Positions 2,552 through 38,793 of a DNA stretch of 64,000 nucleotides are shown here, piece after piece. Every line of letters begins with the position of its first letter. Position 1 is the first letter of the stretch. Origin of the DNA: Lutibacter sp. Hel_I_33_5 (lineage in GTDB: Bacteria; Bacteroidota; Bacteroidia; Flavobacteriales; Flavobacteriaceae); the NCBI RefSeq assembly GCF_007827455.1, contig NZ_VISM01000001.1, positions 1,651,501-1,715,500 on the forward strand, given 5' to 3'. The translations under genes were made by a program, and so were the position numbers. Under the pieces are notes generated by a model. The model ran no database searches, was not told where the DNA came from, and saw only the letters and a list, made by a program, of their open reading frames with translations.

Positions 2552-3589
2552 CTATTTTTTATATTCATTTAAATACTTATTCAATTTTTTTAGAAGTAAA
2601 AAAACAAACATTAATATAAATGCAACAAAACCGTACTTTAAAATTGCGTTACTAAAAATACCGCCTGATATTTTTCCTACAGATTGAAAATTAGAGACTA
2701 CATTTATTATTTTAGAGTTGTTTGCAAACTCTTCATTATTTTCTGTTAAAAAATCTACAAATCTTTTACTAACATTAAACAATTCTATTTCTCTAATCTT
2801 TCCATCTCTACTTGCAGTTGATAAAGAATTTCCTTGAGAAATAATTTTAGCATCATCTATTAATGCTTTTTGATATGCTTCACTTAAATTATTTACTCTA
2901 GCTAAATTACTTAAGAATATTGAGTCGATTCGTTTATAATTTTTTTCTGAGGCATTTTTTAAAAGTTTTAAAAATTCATTTTCTGAAACATCATTAATTA
3001 TTACATCAGTTAATTTTGTGAAAATTTGACTATTCGTAGATTTAACAATGACTTCAAATAACTTGTAATCAAATTTTGTAAAAGATTTTGTAAAATCTAA
3101 AAAAGTGTATTTTTTAATAGAAAATGTATCTATCTGTTGTACTATTTCATCATAAGCTTCAATTACATCTTTAGAATTAATAATTGGTTTTACAGAAAAT
3201 CCTTTTAAAGAAGCAACTTTATTAAAAGGTAAATTAAATTTATTACTTAAAGTAATAGAATCTTTATGAAGTATCAATTGGTTATAATATTCTATATTGC
3301 TATATAATTGTTTTACACTATTAAAGTTTGGCTGAACTATTAATTTAGATTCAAATTTTTCTACATCGTCTTTACTTATAATAAAACCAACTATAGCTCC
3401 TAAAGTAATTGCTATTACAAATTTTATTATGTGTTCTTTAAAAAATAAAAGTATTTGAATGAAAAAATGAAATATCCCTTTAAAAATGCTTCCAATAAAA
3501 TTGAAAAATTTTGAAAACCCTTTTCCAATAATAATAAATAAAGAACCTAATTCTACTTCTTCTTCGGTTTTGTTTGGTTGTGTTGACAT
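2552..3589 (-). CDS. Wzz-like polysaccharide chain-length/co-polymerase membrane protein
   Basis: This 345-residue protein has the two-helix architecture of polysaccharide co-polymerases: a hydrophobic stretch near residues 50-70 (IIKFVIAITLGAIVGFII), a long polar, probably coiled periplasmic region, and a second membrane helix near 315-333 (YGFVAFILMFVFLLL) followed by a short basic cytoplasmic tail. An extra hydrophobic, phenylalanine-rich segment precedes the first helix. Sequence similarity to classical Wzz is too weak to see by eye, so the call rests on topology and on its position beside rfbB/rfbA/rfbC. No C-terminal tyrosine-kinase domain is present. It likely acts in the inner membrane in O-antigen or capsule length control. 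Confidence 0.6.
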   Translation of the reverse strand: MSTQPNKTEEEVELGSLFIIIGKGFSKFFNFIGSIFKGIFHFFIQILLFFKEHIIKFVIAITLGAIVGFIISKDDVEKFESKLIVQPNFNSVKQLYSNIEYYNQLILHKDSITLSNKFNLPFNKVASLKGFSVKPIINSKDVIEAYDEIVQQIDTFSIKKYTFLDFTKSFTKFDYKLFEVIVKSTNSQIFTKLTDVIINDVSENEFLKLLKNASEKNYKRIDSIFLSNLARVNNLSEAYQKALIDDAKIISQGNSLSTASRDGKIREIELFNVSKRFVDFLTENNEEFANNSKIINVVSNFQSVGKISGGIFSNAILKYGFVAFILMFVFLLLKKLNKYLNEYKK

Positions 3590-3611
3590 AGTTATTTTGG
3601 TTGTATCTTTT

Positions 3612-5291
3612 TTAAAAAATTTGTTCTAATATTTTTTGTGTTATTGCATAAGTTGGTATCACACCAGTCATACCTAGCCCTCCTGAAGCTAATGTTGCAC
3701 CAGTTTCCAACGGATTATCAGAAGCATAATATGCATAACGCACTTTTACATTTTCAGAAATGTTTCCTCTAATTTTTGATGCTGACTGAATCGCTTTTTG
3801 ATAATGTGCTCCCTCCATTTCCAAACCAATTACATTCCAAGTAGAATCATGAAAAAACTTTAGAACGTCTTTATTCTGTAACGAAGTTCCTAAAACAGAA
3901 ACCATTGTACCATCAAAAACACCAACTCCAAAATCTTGTAAATCCTCTTTTTTCAATTCGTTTTTAAATGGATAATTATCTGCTGTTCCTTCAAAAATAT
4001 GTGCAGTAGGAATCATAATATCTCCTTTCCCTCCTTCTAAAATACCTGCTTTACCCATTATAGAAACTGATGCAACATCTAAATGAATTTTCTTTCCGTT
4101 ATTTTCGTAAGGCTTTAATAATTCATCCATTGTTTCATAAGCTTGTTCACCAAAAGCATAATCCATAACAATTATTACTGGGTCTTTTCCTTTTGAATGT
4201 TCTTTCTTAAACGGAGTATTATCCCATTTTATTTTACTTGAATCAATAATTTGTACATTTATATTTGTACCCGACTCATCTCTAATGTAAATCAACCCAT
4301 TTTTAGAAGCATAATTCTTTACTTTTTTCTGTAAAGGTTTACTATCATTATCGCTTAATAATTCATATAAAGCAAAATCTAAGTGTGTTTTAGCTTCGGT
4401 TGGCAAGGCATTTTGTGCATAAATTGAATTTAATACACTATGCATATTTGCGCTAATAATATGAATTGGTCTTTCTAAAAGTTGATGATCTAAAAGTGTT
4501 TTTTTAATGTTATTTGCCCAAATTTCACCATAAATATGATGTCCGATTTCATCAACTAAAACAGAACTAAAAGTTACTAATCTTTTTTTATTGTTTGATG
4601 ATTCATTTATTGCAAGTTTTCCTAACCAATAAATTAACTGAAAAAATCTATCTGGATTTTCATCCGTAGAGAAAGTAGCATGAATATCTACAACCTCTTC
4701 ATACGTTCTCCCTAAAATATTACTAAGATGAACAATCGTAATTTCACGCTCATCGTTAGATAATTTTTTATTATTTAAAACGATAGATTCTAAATTCTTC
4801 CATTCTCTAGTGAAAGACTTTCCGTAGTTTAAAATTACTTTATCTTTAATTTTATGAGATTCAATAAAAAGAAACGTTAGATGTGTTAGAATATCATAAA
4901 TCTCAGATCTACCTCTGGTAATTTCGATATTCATTTGATCTTTATCTATTCGATAACAGTTTCTTCTTCTTTTTGGTGGAATAATAGGCTTAAAATGTGA
5001 ATCAGAATATCCTTCATCCGTAGTAAGATTAATAAACTGACACTCTTCAATTCCTTCTGGTAAACGTTCAATTACATAAACCAAGCCATTTAACTCAACT
5101 CGTTCTTCTGCGATTGAACCATAAATTTCTGGACGTAAAAGCAATAAAGATTTCCTAAGTGTTTCACCAGAAATTCCCATAGGTTTATAAAACCCACGCG
5201 TAAACAAATGGCGCATAGTAATATACAAACGCTCAATTGCATTGGTAGATTCTTGTGCCCTAGTTCTTTCTTTTTGCTTAGTGTTTGCCAT
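3612..5291 (-). CDS. Conserved Bacteroidota protein (DUF6909-like) with nucleoside-phosphorylase-like C-terminus
   Basis: The protein is 559 residues from the ATG at 5291; an upstream in-frame TTG (5297) adds two residues and is less likely. The N-terminal half is alpha-helical and basic (RRRNCYRID). The C-terminal half, from about residue 375, contains VIIVMDYAFGEQAYETMDE, ASVSIMGKAGILEGGKGDIMIP, FGVGVFDGTMVSVLGTSLQ and VIGLEMEGAHY. GLEMEGAHY recalls the EME-type ribose-binding motif of nucleoside phosphorylases and nucleosidases, and GDIMIP recalls their GD-ioIP segment. I recognise it from memory as a family called DUF6909; no function is established. It lies between an S41 protease and the polysaccharide run on the same strand. 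Confidence 0.6.
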   Translation of the reverse strand: MANTKQKERTRAQESTNAIERLYITMRHLFTRGFYKPMGISGETLRKSLLLLRPEIYGSIAEERVELNGLVYVIERLPEGIEECQFINLTTDEGYSDSHFKPIIPPKRRRNCYRIDKDQMNIEITRGRSEIYDILTHLTFLFIESHKIKDKVILNYGKSFTREWKNLESIVLNNKKLSNDEREITIVHLSNILGRTYEEVVDIHATFSTDENPDRFFQLIYWLGKLAINESSNNKKRLVTFSSVLVDEIGHHIYGEIWANNIKKTLLDHQLLERPIHIISANMHSVLNSIYAQNALPTEAKTHLDFALYELLSDNDSKPLQKKVKNYASKNGLIYIRDESGTNINVQIIDSSKIKWDNTPFKKEHSKGKDPVIIVMDYAFGEQAYETMDELLKPYENNGKKIHLDVASVSIMGKAGILEGGKGDIMIPTAHIFEGTADNYPFKNELKKEDLQDFGVGVFDGTMVSVLGTSLQNKDVLKFFHDSTWNVIGLEMEGAHYQKAIQSASKIRGNISENVKVRYAYYASDNPLETGATLASGGLGMTGVIPTYAITQKILEQIF

Positions 5292-31801: not shown

Positions 31802-32299
31802 TTAATTTTTTTCAATTCTAAATCCAACATCTGAAATTCCCAGTAAATTCTCTAACGAATTAACAGCACCATTTTTTCGCATTGCTTGAGAAATTTCTAC
31901 GCTATATTCTCCTGAATTTTGAAACACTTTTTGTTCTTTATAAAATAATTTATTTTCTTTTATCTCAGTAAAACCATTCCCTAAAAATTGACCGCTTGCA
32001 TCTGCCATTTCATACTCTAACGTATCAATAATTTTAGTGTTATCTGGTAAATTTAACGTTGTAATTAAATACAAATTACTAAACTCATAATCATTATTAT
32101 TTCTAAGATTGATAAATAAATTATGCTTAGAAATCGTATCAGAAATGGTAAATTGAAACTCTGCTGGTTTATTATTTTTCCAAACAGCATTTTCAAGTGA
32201 AATATACCGATCAAAAACTGCTTTAGAATCACAAGAAACAAAACCAACTACCAACAATAGTGTTATTCCTAAACTACTTGCTTTGTTGATTATTTCCAT
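31802..32299 (-). CDS. gldH: Gliding motility lipoprotein GldH
   Basis: A 165-residue lipoprotein needed for gliding in Flavobacterium johnsoniae. The ATG at 32299 gives a proper signal peptide with lipobox GFVSC (Cys at about residue 22). A longer in-frame reading to 32497 would only add a basic segment that shadows the ricT tail in another frame, and is rejected. Recognisable mature text: AVFDRYISLENAVWKNNKPAEF, FTISDTISKHNLFINLRNN and YEFSNLYLITTLNLPD. The start overlaps the end of ricT by 26 bases; PBP1A follows after 5. Confidence 0.88.
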   Translation of the reverse strand: MEIINKASSLGITLLLVVGFVSCDSKAVFDRYISLENAVWKNNKPAEFQFTISDTISKHNLFINLRNNNDYEFSNLYLITTLNLPDNTKIIDTLEYEMADASGQFLGNGFTEIKENKLFYKEQKVFQNSGEYSVEISQAMRKNGAVNSLENLLGISDVGFRIEKN

Positions 32300-33590
32300 T
32301 TTTGTTTCTGTTATTACGCCTTTTATTTCTGTTATTTTTATTGGGGTTATTTTGAGTTGCCTTTGGTTGATTCGGTTTTTGCTTAGTATTTGTTCGTTCT
32401 CCTTGTTGTTGATTCCCTGCCTTAACTGGAACTTTCTTCTTTCTTTTATTCCTGTTTCGGTTTCTGTTCTTGTTCTTTCTAGATTTAGGAGCATCAAAAC
32501 GGGTTAAACTATCTTGACCGACAACATTTTCGAAATCAACTTTTACAACTTCTTCAATATCAGACTCATATTCTTCTAACGAAGAAGCTTTTTCATTATT
32601 TTTATTGAGCTCAATAATTTCTTGAACTTGCTCTAAGGATAACTTATACCATTTAAAACTATCGTCTTTGTACGTGTACCAAAGCAGTTCTTTAAAAATA
32701 TCCATTTTCACAAAAACTGCATCACCTTTTTCGGTTTTTAGGACTTTGTCTTGTTTCGGAAATCCTTTTAAAGCATCTAAATATGTATCTAATTCAAAAT
32801 TTAAACAACATTTAAGTTTACCACATTGTCCTGCTAATTTTAACGGATTTAATGATAATTGTTGATAGCGTGCAGCAGTGGTTGTTACCTTTCTAAAATC
32901 TGTTAACCAAGTAGAACAACATAATTCTCTACCACAAGAACCAACACCGCCTAAACGTGCTGCTTCTTGACGCGCACCAACTTGTTTCATTTCTACTCTA
33001 ATAGAAAACGCACCTGCTAAATCTCTAATTAATTGCCTAAAATCTACGCGACCTTCGGCAGTATAATAAAACGTTGCTTTATTTCCATCACCTTGATATT
33101 CAACATCAGAAAGCTTCATTTGTAGCCCCAATCTCCCTAGAATCTCTCTTCCTTTTCTTTGAGTTTCTACTTCTTTACCTCTTGCGGTTTGCCAAACATC
33201 TATATCTCTTTGAGATGCTTTTCTATAAATTTTCTTGATTTCTTCGCTATCAAAAGAAATGTTTTTCTTTTTCATTTGGACTTTCACCAATTCTCCAGCT
33301 AAAGAAATGGTTCCAATATCGTGTCCTGGCGAACCTTCTACCGCAACAACATCACCCATAGAAACGGATAACTTCTCTGTATTTTTAAAGAAATGTTTAC
33401 GTCCGTTTTTAAAACGGATCTCGTAAATATTAAAAGGCGCTTGCCCTGTTGGCAACGTCATATTAGAAAGCCAATCAAAAACTGCTAGTTTTTCACTACC
33501 GCTTCCACACGTACCCGAACCACAATTACCATTACTTTTACAACCTTTTGGTACGCCATTTTCTGTTGTACCACAACTTCCACATGCCAT
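32274..33590 (-). CDS. ricT: PSP1-domain protein RicT
   Basis: A 438-residue cytoplasmic protein. The N-terminus is rich in Cys and Gly (MACGSCGTTENG, GNCGSGTCGSGS). The PSP1 domain includes DVVAVEGSPGHDIGTISLAG, GRVDFRQLIRDLAGAFSIRVEM, GARQEAARLGGVGSCGRELCC and GQCGKLKCCLNFE. The CGRELCC and CGKLKCC clusters bind iron-sulfur in the RicA/RicF/RicT complex of Bacillus, which modulates RNase Y; RicA and RicF are not seen here. The last 80 residues are a low-complexity Lys/Arg/Asn/Gln tail, plausibly RNA-binding. It is first in the run to gldH. Confidence 0.85.
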   Translation of the reverse strand: MACGSCGTTENGVPKGCKSNGNCGSGTCGSGSEKLAVFDWLSNMTLPTGQAPFNIYEIRFKNGRKHFFKNTEKLSVSMGDVVAVEGSPGHDIGTISLAGELVKVQMKKKNISFDSEEIKKIYRKASQRDIDVWQTARGKEVETQRKGREILGRLGLQMKLSDVEYQGDGNKATFYYTAEGRVDFRQLIRDLAGAFSIRVEMKQVGARQEAARLGGVGSCGRELCCSTWLTDFRKVTTTAARYQQLSLNPLKLAGQCGKLKCCLNFELDTYLDALKGFPKQDKVLKTEKGDAVFVKMDIFKELLWYTYKDDSFKWYKLSLEQVQEIIELNKNNEKASSLEEYESDIEEVVKVDFENVVGQDSLTRFDAPKSRKNKNRNRNRNKRKKKVPVKAGNQQQGERTNTKQKPNQPKATQNNPNKNNRNKRRNNRNKNGNNQQSK

Positions 33591-33888
33591 GTAAGTATAT
33601 ATATTTTAGAAAAGCCTAAAGCTTTGCCTGTTCATAATTTGATTATCAGATTGATACAAAATAGCAATCGATTTATCTGTAATCAGTAAATATACGGAAT
33701 CTAGCGGAAAGTTAAAACCTAATTTTTTAGTAATAAATTACTGTTTTTTGCTGTTCAATTTAGTTTGTTTCTAAACCAAAAATTCTCGAATTTAGCTAAC
33801 TCAGAATATAAATCATTGAAACGATGCATATTCGTAAAGTTGCCATTCATTGACAGAACACACTAAAAACAGGAAAAAAAAGTGAATT
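33591..33888. other. Intergenic region between ricT and the accessory island
   Basis: Nearly 300 AT-rich bases with no supported ORF. It must hold the promoter of the divergent ricT gene, though no two-box match is convincing. The last third contains the short attC-like palindrome listed separately at 33795-33844, after which the accessory island begins. Confidence 0.6.
33795..33844 (+). repeat. Short attC-like palindrome, weak candidate
   Basis: GCTAAC (33795-33800), a 3-base spacer, then GAATAT (33804-33809) pairing with ATATTC (33828-33833), a 5-base spacer, and GTTGCC (33839-33844). The AAC/GTT outer triplets and the 3/5 spacer asymmetry match the better site at 37613-37718, but the outer boxes pair imperfectly and the whole is only 50 bases. 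It would mark the left edge of the cassette cluster. Confidence 0.35.
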
Positions 33889-34083
33889 ATGGATAAAAAA
33901 AAGGAAAATAGAGGAAGTTTGATTTCAAGTATTGGAGGGTTATTTACAATAATTGGAATGACATTATTAGCAATGAAAAGTTCAGTAATACTTTATCTAT
34001 CTTGCACAATAATAGGTGTGATTTTAGCTGCTTATGGAGTTTTCGTAATGTTAAAAGCTGGACAATTAAAAAAAGAAAAATAA
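33889..34083 (+). CDS. Small two-helix membrane protein
   Basis: A 64-residue protein with a charged N-terminus (MDKKKENRG), two hydrophobic helices (SLISSIGGLFTIIGMTLLAM and VILYLSCTIIGVILAAYGVFV) and a lysine-rich C-terminus. No family is recognised. It lies 24 bases before the 135-residue gene and probably shares its transcript. Both lie in the accessory island between core genes ricT and trhO. Confidence 0.6.
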   Translation: MDKKKENRGSLISSIGGLFTIIGMTLLAMKSSVILYLSCTIIGVILAAYGVFVMLKAGQLKKEK

Positions 34084-34107
34084 TCTTTATTAATTCTTTT
34101 ATAAAAT

Positions 34108-34515
34108 ATGTTTGAAAAAGATTATTTAATGCGACTTATCCAAACTCTAATGGATGCTATCAATAGAATTGTGAACAACCTAGATAAAGATGATATTGAA
34201 GGCGCAAAGATACAATTAAGTGATTCTTTTAGATTATTAGGAAATCAAAAGGAATACTTTCACAACACTGAGTGTGAAGAATTAATTGAGTTTTTTAAAT
34301 TAAAAGAAGGAAATTATCTAAAAAGAGTTGAATTTTTAGCTGAATTAATTTATTTAGACGCTACAATTGAAGAGGATAAAACCAGTAAATTTGAAAAATT
34401 TGAAAAATCAAAAAACCTTTTTCAGCATTATATTGAATATTCAAATGAATACTCTTTTGACATAAATAATAAATTAATCTTAATCAAAAGTAAACTTGAG
34501 AAATTAAAAGAATAA
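34108..34515 (+). CDS. Hypothetical helical protein, DUF6483-like start
   Basis: A 135-residue, soluble, highly helical and charged protein. The start FEKDYLMRLIQTLMDAINRIV resembles a small family I remember as DUF6483, but this is by eye only. The remainder (EGAKIQLSDSFRLLGNQKEYF, NYLKRVEFLAELIYLDA) suggests helical hairpins or TPR-like packing. It is likely cotranscribed with the 64-residue membrane protein. The IS110 element begins within a few bases of its stop codon. Confidence 0.6.
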   Translation: MFEKDYLMRLIQTLMDAINRIVNNLDKDDIEGAKIQLSDSFRLLGNQKEYFHNTECEELIEFFKLKEGNYLKRVEFLAELIYLDATIEEDKTSKFEKFEKSKNLFQHYIEYSNEYSFDINNKLILIKSKLEKLKE

Positions 34516-34602
34516 AACAGTGGAATTTACTCAAAAATAGAACTTTGAAAAAAACAACGAAATGGCAACAAAGTACTGTGGTAAAAAACAAGTAAAAACT
34601 CA

Positions 34603-35574
34603 TTAAATATTCACTAAAGTACTTCTATAAGTATCATCATATATTAATCCTGATTTAGCAATGGCAAATGCTTGTTTTAATAGTTTATTACACACCGCTA
34701 TTAATGCTAATTTTTTACTCTTTCCTTTGGCAACTATTCGTTCATAAATTTCTCTACAAGCCTTGTTGTATTTACAAGCATTAAAACTGCACATAAATAA
34801 TAAATTTCGAAGCTTCTGGTTGCCTATTTTACTTATTCTGGCTCGTCCATTTATACTACTTCCACTTTGTCTAATTACAGGAGTTAATCCAGCATAACTA
34901 CACAATTCACTTCCGCTTTTAAAACGATCAAATCCATCTGTTAAAACAACTAGCATTAGCGCTGTTTTATTTCCAATTCCAGGTATTGTTTTTAAGCGTG
35001 TTAAAACATCTTGATGTAGCTTTCTTACTAAAATTAATAATGCTGCTTCTACCTTTTCTATTTGTTTTGTTACCTGTCTCAAACTACTTTTTAATGAGCT
35101 CGTAACTACTTTACTTGGATTGCCCAAAACTTCTTCTCCATGTATTTTGTTTTTTAACATAGTACTCTGTTTTGTATACACAGAAAGAAGTCTTGTCATT
35201 TGTAAGCATTCTAACTGATGTTTTGAATTACCTTGCCATAACTTTAATTCAACTTGTTTTGCATACTCACAAATCAATCTTGAATCGCTTTTATCTGTCT
35301 TTATTTTTGATAACTTCATCTGGATAAAGCGTTTCACCGACAGAGGGTTTTCTACTGAAACTTTTATACTGTTTTCCTGTAAAAAATAAGCCAACCTGTA
35401 ATGGTAATAACCTGTAGCTTCCATTACACAATGACTATTGTAATCTAGATGTTTTACAAATTTTTTAAATCCAGTTACATTGTTTTTAAACTGATAGTAA
35501 TTACCAGAAGAATCTGTAACATCAAATACTAAATGACTAATGTCTATTCCAAAATATTTAATATCTTTATTCAT
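34603..35574 (-). CDS. IS110-family transposase/recombinase
   Basis: An intact 323-residue recombinase. The N-terminal RuvC-like DEDD domain shows YFGIDISHLVFDV (Asp), CVMEATGYYHYRLA (Glu) and KTDKSDSRLICEYA (two Asp). The C-terminal Tnp domain has LKTIPGIGNKTALMLV, SGSELCSYAGLTPVIRQSGS and SINGRARISKIGNQKLRNLL, with the catalytic serine probably in the SGSS segment. IS110 enzymes recombine DNA guided by a bridge RNA from the element's own non-coding end. No frameshift or stop is visible, so it may be active. Only one copy lies in the window. Confidence 0.93.
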   Translation of the reverse strand: MNKDIKYFGIDISHLVFDVTDSSGNYYQFKNNVTGFKKFVKHLDYNSHCVMEATGYYHYRLAYFLQENSIKVSVENPLSVKRFIQMKLSKIKTDKSDSRLICEYAKQVELKLWQGNSKHQLECLQMTRLLSVYTKQSTMLKNKIHGEEVLGNPSKVVTSSLKSSLRQVTKQIEKVEAALLILVRKLHQDVLTRLKTIPGIGNKTALMLVVLTDGFDRFKSGSELCSYAGLTPVIRQSGSSINGRARISKIGNQKLRNLLFMCSFNACKYNKACREIYERIVAKGKSKKLALIAVCNKLLKQAFAIAKSGLIYDDTYRSTLVNI

Positions 35575-35585
35575 AAGAAAATGTT

Positions 35586-35765
35586 TTAACGAAAGGACAA
35601 CCTACGCAAGTTTCAACGACTTAAAATCGAGGTCTGAAGCCTCATAAAACTGTACGAAATCTGTGTAGAAAAGAGAGGGGATTTTCAATGTTGACGAGAT
35701 CAATAGTCTCTCCGTATATAATAACCTTAATCCTCTCTTCTGTGCTTTCTAATTTATATTGCTTA
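35586..35765 (-). ncRNA. Candidate IS110 bridge RNA
   Basis: The non-coding leader directly upstream of the transposase folds well on the minus strand. A long stem joins 35729-35741 (AGAAGAGAGGATT in RNA sense) to 35667-35683 (its near complement, with 2-base bulges), enclosing about 45 bases that could carry a guide loop. A second hairpin at 35629-35643 (GAGG/CCTC) and a smaller one (AAGT/ACTT) lie nearer the transposase. Position, length and multi-hairpin layout agree with bridge RNAs of IS110-group elements, for example IS621 (about 177 nt). Guide loops were not matched to target and donor. Confidence 0.5.
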
Positions 35766-35786
35766 ATTTAACCTTTTTATTAAAAT

Positions 35787-35921
35787 GCTAACTTAAGACG
35801 TATAAACTTTATTGCTAGTTTTAGCTCACTTGGGAAATTCCTTCGGAATTTTTCCGTTCGTGTTTTATTTAGTAAATTCATTGCCTGAAACACGCAACAA
35901 AGCTTATACAATAACGTTAGC
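35787..35921 (+). repeat. attC-like recombination site 1 (135 bp)
   Basis: Outer boxes GCTAAC (35787-35792) and GTTAGC (35916-35921) are perfectly complementary. Inner boxes GTATAAAC (35800-35807) and GCTTATAC (35902-35909) pair with one mismatch. The centre has its own hairpin (GGAAATTCC-TTC-GGAATTTTTCC, about 35833-35854). This R-L-variable-L-R layout with AAC and GTT at the outer ends is that of integron attC sites; GTTAGC deviates slightly from the GTTRRRY consensus. The right part shares CACGCAACAAA-L-spacer-GTTAGC with the site at 37613-37718. The S12 gene starts 18 bases after it. Confidence 0.6.
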
Positions 35922-35939
35922 TTGAATATCACAAATAAC

Positions 35940-37601
35940 ATGAAATTAAAGTGTACATTTTTTTTACTAATCTTTTTTAGCTTAGTTACAGCACAAGCTC
36001 AATTGAGTGAAATTCAATCTCAAAAAATTAACAGTTTATTTAATTCATGGACAGAACCTAATCAACCAGGAGGTACTCTTGGAATTATGCAAAATGGAAA
36101 AATTATTTACTCAAAAGCATTTGGCTTAGCTAGTTTAGAATATCAAGTGCCAAATACTACAGAAACTATCTTCAATATAGCATCAGTTTCTAAACAGATA
36201 ACTGCTATGGGAATTGTATTACTTCACCAGAAAGGTTTACTGTCAATAGATGATGATATACGCAAACATTTGCCAGATATGCCAGATTTTGGACATACTA
36301 TTACTATACGTCATATGCTACATCACACAAGTGGAATGCGTAGCTTACACTCTATGCTTAGTTTAGCTGGCTGGCGACGAGGAGACTATAGGACTAATGA
36401 TGATCTGTATCGTTTTATGCTAAAACAGAAAGAATTAAACTTTATTCCTGGTGATGAATATTTGTATTGTAATACTGGATACATACTAATGACCAATATT
36501 ATTGAAAATGTAACTAAAGAAAAGTTTCCACAATGGATGAAAGCTAATATTTTTGAGCCTTTAGGAATGACAAATACTTACGTAGAGGATAGATATGACA
36601 GAATTGTTCCAAATAATGCCACTTCTTATTATGATTCAAAAGATGGTTTTTTTAGAGCAGTAGAGTTTTGGGGATATGTAGGCTCTGGTAACGTACACTC
36701 AACTACAAGAGACCTATTAAACTGGTCGCAAAATTTTAGTAAACCATCTTCAAATTGGGGTTCTGCTTTTGAAATGCTGAAGACAACTGATAAACTTAAT
36801 GATGGTAGTGAAAATAATTATGCCTTTGGTGTATTTATTGATGAATTTAATGGATACAAAACAATTCAACATGGAGGTAGCATTGGAGGTTTTAGATCTT
36901 CTCTAAGTAGTTATCCTGAAGAAAAGTTAGATATTGCAATATTGGCTAATTTTTCTTCATCCAAAATCGGAAAAATAGAGCGTGATATTGTGAGAATTTT
37001 ATTAAAAGATAAACCAAAGACAATTGCAAAAATTACAAAGCCAAATATTCCAAATAATGAAACCATATATGCTTTAGAACAGATAATAGGGAGATACGAA
37101 GTCAAATTAGGAACTATAGCTAAAATAAGTATAGAAAATGACTCTTTACACGTATTACAAGAATGGAACAAATCTGAATACAATATTTACAATACTAATG
37201 GTAATGTTTATAAAATATCAGAAAAATCTAAAGTTGAGTTTGAATTTTCAGAATTAAAAAACAATAAAGCTCAAGTACTTACAGTATATAATAATGGGAA
37301 TAAATCTGAAGCAAAAAGATATTTAGACAAAGATTTATCTGATATTAATTTAAACGACTATATAGGAAGATTTTACAGCCAAGAACTTGAAAGCACAATT
37401 GATATTCTTCCTAAAAAAGAGCAAATAATTGCTCATCATGCTAGACTTGGAAATTATCCATTACAACTTCTCGCAAAAGACACATTAAAAAACTCAAACT
37501 TTGGGACAATAAAAATTATACGTGATATTGAAAATATGATAATTGGAATTAGAATTTCCAATGGAAGAGCCAAAAATGTTTGGTTTGAAAAACAGAAGTA
37601 A
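35940..37601 (+). CDS. S12 serine hydrolase, beta-lactamase-related
   Basis: A 553-residue exported protein of the AmpC/D-alanyl-D-alanine carboxypeptidase class C fold. Signal peptide to AQAQ; the catalytic SxxK is SVSKQITAMG at about residue 74, the YxN motif is YCNTGYI at about 166, and HGGSIGGF serves as the KTG equivalent. A C-terminal extension of about 180 residues (ALEQIIGRYEVKLG and YIGRFYSQELESTIDI, DUF3471-like blocks) follows. Likely a periplasmic esterase or peptidase; antibiotic hydrolysis is not implied. The ATG at 35940 is chosen over a TTG at 35922 that abuts GTTAGC. It is the cargo between two attC-like sites. Confidence 0.88.
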   Translation: MKLKCTFFLLIFFSLVTAQAQLSEIQSQKINSLFNSWTEPNQPGGTLGIMQNGKIIYSKAFGLASLEYQVPNTTETIFNIASVSKQITAMGIVLLHQKGLLSIDDDIRKHLPDMPDFGHTITIRHMLHHTSGMRSLHSMLSLAGWRRGDYRTNDDLYRFMLKQKELNFIPGDEYLYCNTGYILMTNIIENVTKEKFPQWMKANIFEPLGMTNTYVEDRYDRIVPNNATSYYDSKDGFFRAVEFWGYVGSGNVHSTTRDLLNWSQNFSKPSSNWGSAFEMLKTTDKLNDGSENNYAFGVFIDEFNGYKTIQHGGSIGGFRSSLSSYPEEKLDIAILANFSSSKIGKIERDIVRILLKDKPKTIAKITKPNIPNNETIYALEQIIGRYEVKLGTIAKISIENDSLHVLQEWNKSEYNIYNTNGNVYKISEKSKVEFEFSELKNNKAQVLTVYNNGNKSEAKRYLDKDLSDINLNDYIGRFYSQELESTIDILPKKEQIIAHHARLGNYPLQLLAKDTLKNSNFGTIKIIRDIENMIIGIRISNGRAKNVWFEKQK

Positions 37602-37612
37602 TATATACTCAA

Positions 37613-37718
37613 GCCAACAAAGTGTATAGCTAAAGGTAAGTGATTTTTTATAAAGCTAGTGTTTAACTCTAAATTTTGTACATTTAAACACGCAACAAAC
37701 TATACACAAAACGTTAGC
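37613..37718 (+). repeat. attC-like recombination site 2 (106 bp)
   Basis: Outer boxes GCCAAC (37613-37618) and GTTAGC (37713-37718) pair with one mismatch. After 3- and 5-base spacers, inner boxes GTGTATAG (37622-37629) and CTATACAC (37700-37707) are perfectly complementary. A perfect inner stem GTGTTTAA (37659-37666)/TTAAACAC (37684-37691) forms the variable terminal structure. It begins 12 bases after the S12 stop codon, the normal place for a cassette attC. Length is close to the 120-base Vibrio repeats. Confidence 0.65.
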
Positions 37719-37761
37719 GAAACCAATAAAAAAGAGTCAAAATTGAAATATTTTTTAAATT

Positions 37762-38793
37762 CTATTTCTTAAACTTCAAAACTTCACTTCTACCTTTTTT
37801 AAAAATTTTATTACTATTTCCTTTACCTTTTCTTAACTCTTTTTGTTCTTCAAAAGATAATTGAATTATTTCTTGGCAATCAGTAGAACAGGTATTTTCT
37901 GTTTTTTCTGCACAATCATCACATTGAATAAACAGTAAATGGCAGGCTTCGTTTGCGCAATTTGTATGATTGTCACATGGTTTTCCACATTGATGACAAT
38001 TAGCAACAACATCATCAGTAATTTTTTCTGCTCTTCGATGATCGAAGACAAAATTTTTACCAATAAATTTATTTTCTATACCCTCAGAATTTACTTGTCG
38101 TGTATATTCTATAATTCCGCCTTCTAACTGAAAAACATTCTTAAATCCTTTGTGTTTATAATAGGCTGAGGCTTTTTCACATCGAATTCCACCAGTACAA
38201 TACATCAATAAATTTTTGTCATCTTTATACTCTTTTAAATCTTCTTCAATCAAATCTAAAGAATCTCTAAACGTATCAACATCTGGTGTTACGGCGCCAT
38301 CAAAATGCCCGATTTCGCTTTCGTAATGATTTCGCATATCCACACAAACCGTATCTGGATTTGTTAGCATTTCGTTGAATTCCTTCGCATTTAAATGAAC
38401 CCCTTTATTAGTTACATCAAAAGTTTCATCATTTAAACCATCGGCAACAATTTTGTTTCTAACCTTCACTTTTAATTTTAAAAACGATTTATTGTCTTGC
38501 TCAACAGCGATATTCAAACGAATATCTTTTAAAAAAGAAATCGCATCTAATTGATCTTTTAAAGCATATAAATTTTCTGACGGAACGGATAATTGCGCAT
38601 TAATTCCCTCGTAAGAAACATAGATTCTTCCAAGAACGTCTAACTCGTTCCATTCTAAAAATAATTTATCTCTAAGTAATTGTGGATTTTCTATCTTATA
38701 ATATTGATAGAAAGAAATTGTAAGTCGTTCTTTACCAGCTTTGTCTATTAATTCAGCGCGTTCTTTGGCGCTTAACTTGTTGTACAGTTGCAT
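37762..38793 (-). CDS. trhO: tRNA uridine(34) hydroxylase (rhodanese-related)
   Basis: TrhO/YceA performs oxygen-dependent 5-hydroxylation of U34 in some tRNAs. The 343 residues show the N-terminal ferredoxin-like domain (FYQYYKIENPQLLRDKLF, GRIYVSYEGINAQLSVP), the rhodanese domain with VCVDMRNHYESEIGHFDGA and the active loop YCTGGIRCEKASAY, and LEGGIIEYTRQV. The C-terminus has a Cys/His-rich cluster (CHQCGKPCDNHTNCAN, CDDCAEKTENTCSTDC) that probably binds zinc, then a basic tail. It closes the accessory island on the right. Confidence 0.9.
   Translation of the reverse strand: MQLYNKLSAKERAELIDKAGKERLTISFYQYYKIENPQLLRDKLFLEWNELDVLGRIYVSYEGINAQLSVPSENLYALKDQLDAISFLKDIRLNIAVEQDNKSFLKLKVKVRNKIVADGLNDETFDVTNKGVHLNAKEFNEMLTNPDTVCVDMRNHYESEIGHFDGAVTPDVDTFRDSLDLIEEDLKEYKDDKNLLMYCTGGIRCEKASAYYKHKGFKNVFQLEGGIIEYTRQVNSEGIENKFIGKNFVFDHRRAEKITDDVVANCHQCGKPCDNHTNCANEACHLLFIQCDDCAEKTENTCSTDCQEIIQLSFEEQKELRKGKGNSNKIFKKGRSEVLKFKK

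Follow-up and report, generated by a model that had tools for sequence, protein, structure and literature searches.

Gene cassettes between ricT and trhO

The window analysed here is a stretch of 64,000 nucleotides from Lutibacter sp. Hel_I_33_5 (NZ_VISM01000001.1, positions 1,651,501 to 1,715,500 of the forward strand), in which two putative gene cassettes of an integron-like system, with their attC-type recombination sites, lie between the genes ricT and trhO. The original prediction had already proposed an insertion between these two core genes, and the spacing agrees with it: the ricT-trhO gap is 4171 bp here, 189–395 bp in 12 of the 14 relatives with both genes, and 930 and 969 bp in the other two. 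For this comparison 30 trhO loci (the window's own included) were taken from 88 matches; ricT was found in 14, and the remaining 16 (own included) have no ricT within about 1.5 kb. An exact empty site was not found in the ricT-trhO interval of the relatives, which also lack the hairpin element at the left end of the insertion, called the docking hairpin here after its proposed role. The features of the region are as follows (IS, insertion sequence; ORF, open reading frame).

32274-33590, minus strand: ricT (name from the original prediction), PSP1 domain in Pfam
33765..33795, plus strand: promoter-like TTG-N20-GAATTTAG in the docking element, degenerate copy
33791..33839, plus strand: left part of the docking hairpin, R'' TTTAGCTAAC ... 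GCATATTCGTAAAG, with the crossover point at G33839|T33840
33840..35916, plus strand: cassette A with the IS110-family element inside, start TTGCCATTCATTG, end G35916, crossover G33839/T33840
33889..34083, plus strand: ORF of 64 aa, nothing in Pfam at E 0.001
34108..34515, plus strand: ORF of 135 aa, nothing in Pfam at E 0.001
34560..34571, plus strand: R'' side of the cassette A attC (AAATGGCAACAA)
34572..35798, minus strand: IS110-family element inside the attC, transposase at 34603-35574 (minus strand; PF02371, PF01548)
35799..35921, plus strand: remainder of the cassette A attC beyond the IS, CGTATAAACTTTATTGC ... GCTTATAC AATAAC G|TTAGC
35917..37713, plus strand: cassette B, start TTAGCTTGA, end G37713
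35940..37601, plus strand: serine hydrolase, beta-lactamase/S12-type (PF00144)
37607..37724, plus strand: cassette B attC, whose end GTTAGCGAAACC, after G37713, is the right half of the docking hairpin
37762-38793, minus strand: trhO (name from the original prediction), UPF0176/rhodanese domains in Pfam

Two long palindromes had been predicted as attC-like sites; both are present with the CACGCAACAAA lead-in in common, and both match the attC-type model R1. This model was built from 55 sites, among them 37611-37720 and not 35785-35923, and the scores are 58.5 bits (E 4.4e-9) for the former and 101 bits (E 1.7e-17) for the latter. The core pattern CGCAACAAA-N5-18-AACGTTAGC occurs three times in the genome and the reversed control pattern does not occur, while an Rfam scan of 33500-38000 gave no match up to E 1. 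The outer box GCTAAC assigned to the left palindrome (35787-35792) turned out to be the end of the IS110 element, and the true R'' is AAATGGCAAC at 34560-34569, which is the complement of its own cassette start with 1 mismatch in 10. In cassette B, the R'' TCAAGCCAAC (37609-37618) and the cassette start GTTAGCTTGA, as read from the sequence, are complementary at 9 of 10 positions. The predicted cassette layout is supported; a weaker third attC claimed at 33795-33844 is in fact the left part of the docking hairpin, a seven-copy element.

Paired site ends and a recombinase with its own arrays

No integrase had been predicted. This is right for the window and wrong for the closed genome (G000, 3.10 Mb in a single contig), which encodes a 394-aa tyrosine recombinase, with an array of its own, 213 kb away at L071 3310-4494 (G000:C1:1471310-1472494). 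The recombinase gene is followed by the attI-like sequence GTTGTACCC and then by the cassette array, whose first R'' (GGGTACAAC) complements the start of the attI-like sequence and whose genes include members of the TetR, SDR, amidohydrolase, alpha/beta hydrolase and Fic families. In ten other genus genomes with long stretches, a recombinase match followed by sites was found in nine (G051, G053, G040, G009, G046, G092, G079, G034 and G047), and sites without a recombinase match in G008 (short contig). The site finder also gives sites before the recombinase in G040, G009, G092 and G047, which are possibly false and were kept in the counts. For the named loci, 80 homologues were taken; 14 have model hits, and of these 43 hits 41 are downstream of the recombinase and oriented like it; loci with this layout of recombinase and sites come from Flavobacteriaceae and Cyclobacteriaceae. 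In L153, unlike the other 13 loci, two attC-like sites (83-1692) lie upstream of the recombinase match (2946-3983) and divergent from it, which is the layout of classical integrons.

The sequence ATATAACNAGTT is common downstream of the recombinase in many genus genomes, and what directly follows it is variable. With a pattern that allows alternatives and was devised after viewing the loci, a motif of this type was found in 29 of 32; the recombinase loci L041, L048, L049 and L060 were left out of the attI count and of set A2. In 8 of the 13 named loci with sites, a GTT partner for the first R'' lies no more than 150 bp from the gene end and matches at 6-8 of 9 positions, and the R'' boxes of other loci, used as control on the same attI regions, give means of 2.4-4.3. 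As a candidate for a cassette promoter (Pc), the sequence TAnnTTTG is present in 14 of 32 attI regions, in two of them away from the ATATAACNAGTT-type motif.

The longest ORF runs along the array in 136 of 160 cassettes and opposite to it in 3, and 21 contain no ORF of 60 aa. Near-full-length sharing among 165 cassettes amounts to one cross-genome pair at 84% and four pairs inside one genome. The array L069 of G040 contains four cassette pairs that are 99.7-100% identical (starts near 4734/10565, 13620/15893, 17467/11420 and 16567/12722), which suggests recent duplication.

An exchange at G|TT would leave each R'' complementary to the previous R' and not to its own, and we know of no other process that predicts this pairing. 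The site finder gave 167 adjacent pairs from 12 stretches and the window, 166 of them from outside the window. In these 166 pairs R'' matches the previous R' at 6.65 of 9 variable positions and its own R' at 3.45, while 2000 shuffles gave a mean of 3.37 and a maximum of 3.75. An exact match at the seven central positions is seen in 55% compared with 0%, and the 26 pairs from named loci give 6.81 and 3.42. The finder rules were derived on these same arrays and let some false sites through; the effect of this should be a smaller contrast.

When R'' is joined to its own cassette start in 136 sites selected for complementary arms, folding favours the bottom strand over the top strand in every one (-25.3 vs -20.7 kcal/mol), with 60 mono-shuffled sites at -9.4 (bottom) and -8.1 (top) kcal/mol. 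In the alignment of 55 sites, 14 of the 21 pairs vary at both positions. Three pairs are mostly G-U, namely columns 9/144 (55 of 55 sites), 29/130 (53) and 23/135 (44), and a fourth, 24/134, is G-U in 23 sites; these become A-C on the top strand. On the R'' side all 136 sites have a spacer of 3 nt, the length that the finder preferred within its permitted 2-5, and on the R' side 131 have a spacer of 6 nt. The integron consensus is GTTRRRY for R' and RYYYAAC for R''. As predicted from the GTTAGC end, the sites depart from it: R' fits in 9 of 136 and R'' in 14 of 136, with GTTR and YAAC in 135 of 136. The same R' consensus is given in a passage of PMC9892861.

The recombinase keeps the catalytic R-K-H-R-H-Y (R231, K256, H320, R323, H346 and Y355) in 29 of 29 aligned members. 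The integron-specific insert, proposed in advance as the mark of the enzyme, is missing from it: the IntI model aligns in two pieces with the region of the insert (about 42 residues) unmatched, and K and H are separated by 60-62 residues in 16 genus members, compared with 103-104 in the 26 rows that carry the insert and 84 in one IntI-like row. Three members score 192-215 bits with TIGR02249 (IntI), under its cut-off of 265, and the best NCBIfam model is NF040815 (XerA; 216.1, 220.4 and 208.3 bits, cut-off 220). The best folds for the predicted structure are 4a8e and 5hxy, a ranking that is only a guide at a predicted local distance difference test score (pLDDT) of 77.7 and a predicted template modelling score of 0.50. 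In a 95-row tree (a 102-row tree minus 7 long or distant rows), the 26 IntI-type rows form one side of a branch with support 100*. Approximately unbiased (AU) tests reject neither IntI and the N-extended group as one clade (p-AU 0.512) nor the N-extended group alone as a clade (p-AU 0.591).

This N-terminal extension is a domain of about 90 residues, predicted with five strands and two helices (pLDDT 84.3). HARP (PF07443) is its best single lead, at weak scores, with aIF1 and XPB above HARP in VIA and HARP in 1 of 14 in a second set. The N-terminal profile against PDB sequences gave a best E of 0.057, and 4o66 (HARP) came third at E 0.84. According to a passage of PMC4666394, the HARP fold consists of five strands and two helices. 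We take this weak likeness to HARP as a lead, and we claim membership of neither XPB nor HARP.

The homologues in L162 and L166 are about 680 aa long with an N-terminal region of about 390 residues, and L166 has four attC-like sites downstream; this may be a further enzyme variant. Scattered through the genome G045 are nine matches, equal in score, to the final part of the integrase model, and every one lies in an open frame of 128 aa.

Proposed docking hairpins and an IS110-family element

Allowing 1 mismatch in the 22 bases searched, the docking element (...AACGATGCATATTCGTAAAG|TT) has 7 copies in this genome. After G|TT the copies differ, with cassette-like starts in six (by eye) and TTAAGAACAAC in one, and the right half that completes the hairpin, GTTAGCGAA, lies downstream of five of the seven, with the variant GTTATCGAAAC in one and none in one. 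An R'' within 1 mismatch of the complement of the docking start is present before the far end in the window, L123, L124 and L125. The element itself (33795-33844) scores 27.1 bits (E 0.007) with the attC model and alone folds like shuffles (z -0.07 and -0.18). A motif TTG-N19-21-[TG]AAYTT[ACT]G, by a pattern devised after viewing the copies, is present in 6 of 7, and we take it to resemble the Bacteroidota -33/-7 promoter.

The copies might instead be remnants that spread in some other way and are not active landing sites. We hold this to be somewhat unlikely: all seven are occupied, one runs on into TTAAGAACAAC and in another a far end could not be recognised, but six of the seven continue, precisely from G|TT onward, with differing cassette-like starts, and five have the far half GTTAGCGAA.

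The IS110-family element inside cassette A has 10 matches in this genome. Its left junction is AACAA|AGTACTG in 9 of 9 readable copies, and among the nine copies with readable right ends (one diverged), eight continue into CGTATA or CGTGTATA and one into a deleted site; the right-end sequence ATGCTAACTTAAG recurs in other copies. One IS110-family element has entered attC repeatedly at the same point, in L071 9112-12597 and in G000:C1 near 2.49 and 2.95 Mb. IS1111 elements that target attC are known from classical integrons (cited in a passage of PMC11187229). The present element is likewise of IS110/IS1111 type and in attC sites, whereas its insertion lies between R'' and L'' (AACAA|CGTATA), a comparison of insertion habit and not of group membership.

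Relation to integrons

From the above, we consider it probable (about 85%) that the window holds two gene cassettes of an integron-like system, which would be moved by the chromosomal tyrosine recombinase acting on folded bottom strands. The recombinase at L071 3310-4494 would recombine the folded bottom-strand attC at G|TT, and cassettes would travel as circles among the attI-like site, the attC sites and the dispersed docking hairpins, possibly with expression from docking or attI promoters. Cassettes A and B would have been inserted into the docking hairpin that lies between ricT and trhO, and the attC-targeting IS110 element would later have split the attC of cassette A. What the sequences themselves show is how the sites are built, the swapping of their ends, where attI lies, the difference in folding between the strands and the occurrence of the recombinase together with arrays.

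The system is widespread in the host family. In this genome R1 gives 32 hits at 31 places, the weakest near E 0.003. Sites were found in 26 of 97 genus genomes (strict pattern; control 0), in 171 of 199 family genomes (model, E up to 1e-4) and in 84 of 395 phylum-sample genomes (8 candidates scored per genome). A recombinase match (E up to 1e-70) is present in 124 of 199 family genomes, some of these matches beginning after residue 70 and perhaps being other Xer proteins, and sites and recombinase occur together in 111 to 119. Canonical IntI over the TIGR02249 cut-off was found in 0 of 97 genus genomes and in 105 of 395 phylum-sample genomes. Among the 107 phylum-sample genomes with an IntI match, one (G132) is in the host class and none in the host order, family or genus; none of the 41 family genomes of the phylum sample (host genus included) contains canonical IntI. 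DNA similarity to phages gave one weak hit.

Several results weigh against this interpretation. The first R'' lacks an attI partner within 150 bp of the gene in 5 of 13 named loci, and in L134 the attI match (6) does not exceed the best one given by R'' boxes of other loci. The native right site 37611-37720, folded alone, is no better than shuffles (z 0.71 and -0.10 on the two strands), and the recombinase gene of G040 is split across two frames. The docking cassette of L004 has no R'' within 1 mismatch, there is no empty docking site among the seven copies of this genome, and the other 96 genus genomes gave one 3-mismatch hit (G021), at noise level (reversed control two). In the family, 52 to 60 genomes have sites and no recombinase match at E 1e-70, and 28 of 199 have no sites, 5 of the 20 listed among these having a recombinase match.

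A different explanation is that the sites are ordinary attC handled by canonical IntI, in the past or elsewhere, and that the XerA-like recombinase is a mere neighbour. According to a passage of PMC9892861, the predicted site attC2 of Polaribacter phage P12002L was recombined by IntI1 as bottom strand and not as top strand, with the attC1 junction unverified. R1 gives five hits in this phage up to E 1, three of them below 1e-5, and attC2 was not matched to any hit by coordinates. Outside the host class, the model also finds sites in 45 genomes of the phylum, and 22 of these have canonical IntI over the cut-off (by eye). However, in the host class only G132 has canonical IntI among 39 phylum-sample genomes with sites, none of the 97 genus genomes passes the IntI cut-off, and the attI partners lie directly behind the recombinase gene, which makes this explanation improbable. 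Phage P12002L also contains compact attC-model matches of 55-57 nt (L248 30004-30060 and 30905-30959) near methyltransferase genes, of docking-hairpin size and weak (E 0.047 and 0.068).

That the palindromes are dispersed repeats like repetitive extragenic palindromes (REP) or miniature inverted-repeat transposable elements (MITE), standing at gene ends by chance, is highly improbable. Several of the 31 places are isolated, in favour of this reading, but R'' pairs with its own cassette start and not with the other half of the palindrome, whereas repeats that move as units would self-pair.

On sequence grounds the proposed cassette system is an integron-like variant and not an IntI integron, with layout and crossover of integron type and an enzyme outside the IntI definition. 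As in IntI integrons (class 1, sedentary chromosomal), attI adjoins the integrase gene, the cassettes are tandem and mostly of one gene, attC has paired R and L boxes with G|TT as the crossover point, and folding favours the bottom strand. In contrast, the recombinase here has an N-terminal domain and a gene pointing toward the array, and lacks the IntI-specific insert and a TIGR02249 score over the cut-off; R' is rarely GTTRRRY, the GTTRRRY/RYYYAAC consensus is not kept, and conserved G-T wobbles lie on the bottom strand. The insert is called essential or necessary in passages of PMC8138268 and PMC9668308, and the former also describes it as not fully conserved in an integron-like subgroup. 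NF040815 (XerA) gives the best NCBIfam model, at scores about its cut-off, and 4a8e and 5hxy the best folds, but the present recombinase has the extra domain of about 90 residues and arrays of attC-type sites.

Clusters of attC without integrase are called CALIN (a passage of PMC9024848). The cluster in the window likewise has no adjoining integrase, but it lies in a repeated hairpin docking element and a matching recombinase is present elsewhere in the genome. At the attG secondary sites of Loot et al. 2024, as cited in a passage of PMC12901181, cassettes enter the chromosome outside attI. Entry away from attI is proposed here likewise, but into a repeated element that has complementary arms and carries a promoter-like motif. 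For Bacteroidetes proper, one complete integron is named in a passage of PMC9024848. The "attC" in a passage of PMC4322650 is a misspelt strain name and not the site. Our search of the open-licence PubMed Central literature, with subscription papers and preprints outside it, returned no report of such a system.

It is possible, and we offer this tentatively, that these loci represent a second kind of integron, in which a recombinase of Xer lineage, at all times without the IntI insert, would read folded single-stranded sites via a HARP-like, branched-DNA-binding N-terminal domain. The G-T wobbles would set the strand, and scattered promoter-bearing hairpins would serve in this genome as extra sites of landing and expression.

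In the phylum sample, other classes often have canonical IntI and the host class has almost none, yet attC-type sites are frequent in the host family, together with a recombinase without the insert. If the integron-like system is confirmed, IntI-based searches miss a large gene-capture system in common marine bacteria, and what an enzyme needs for recombining folded single-stranded sites would be open to comparison.

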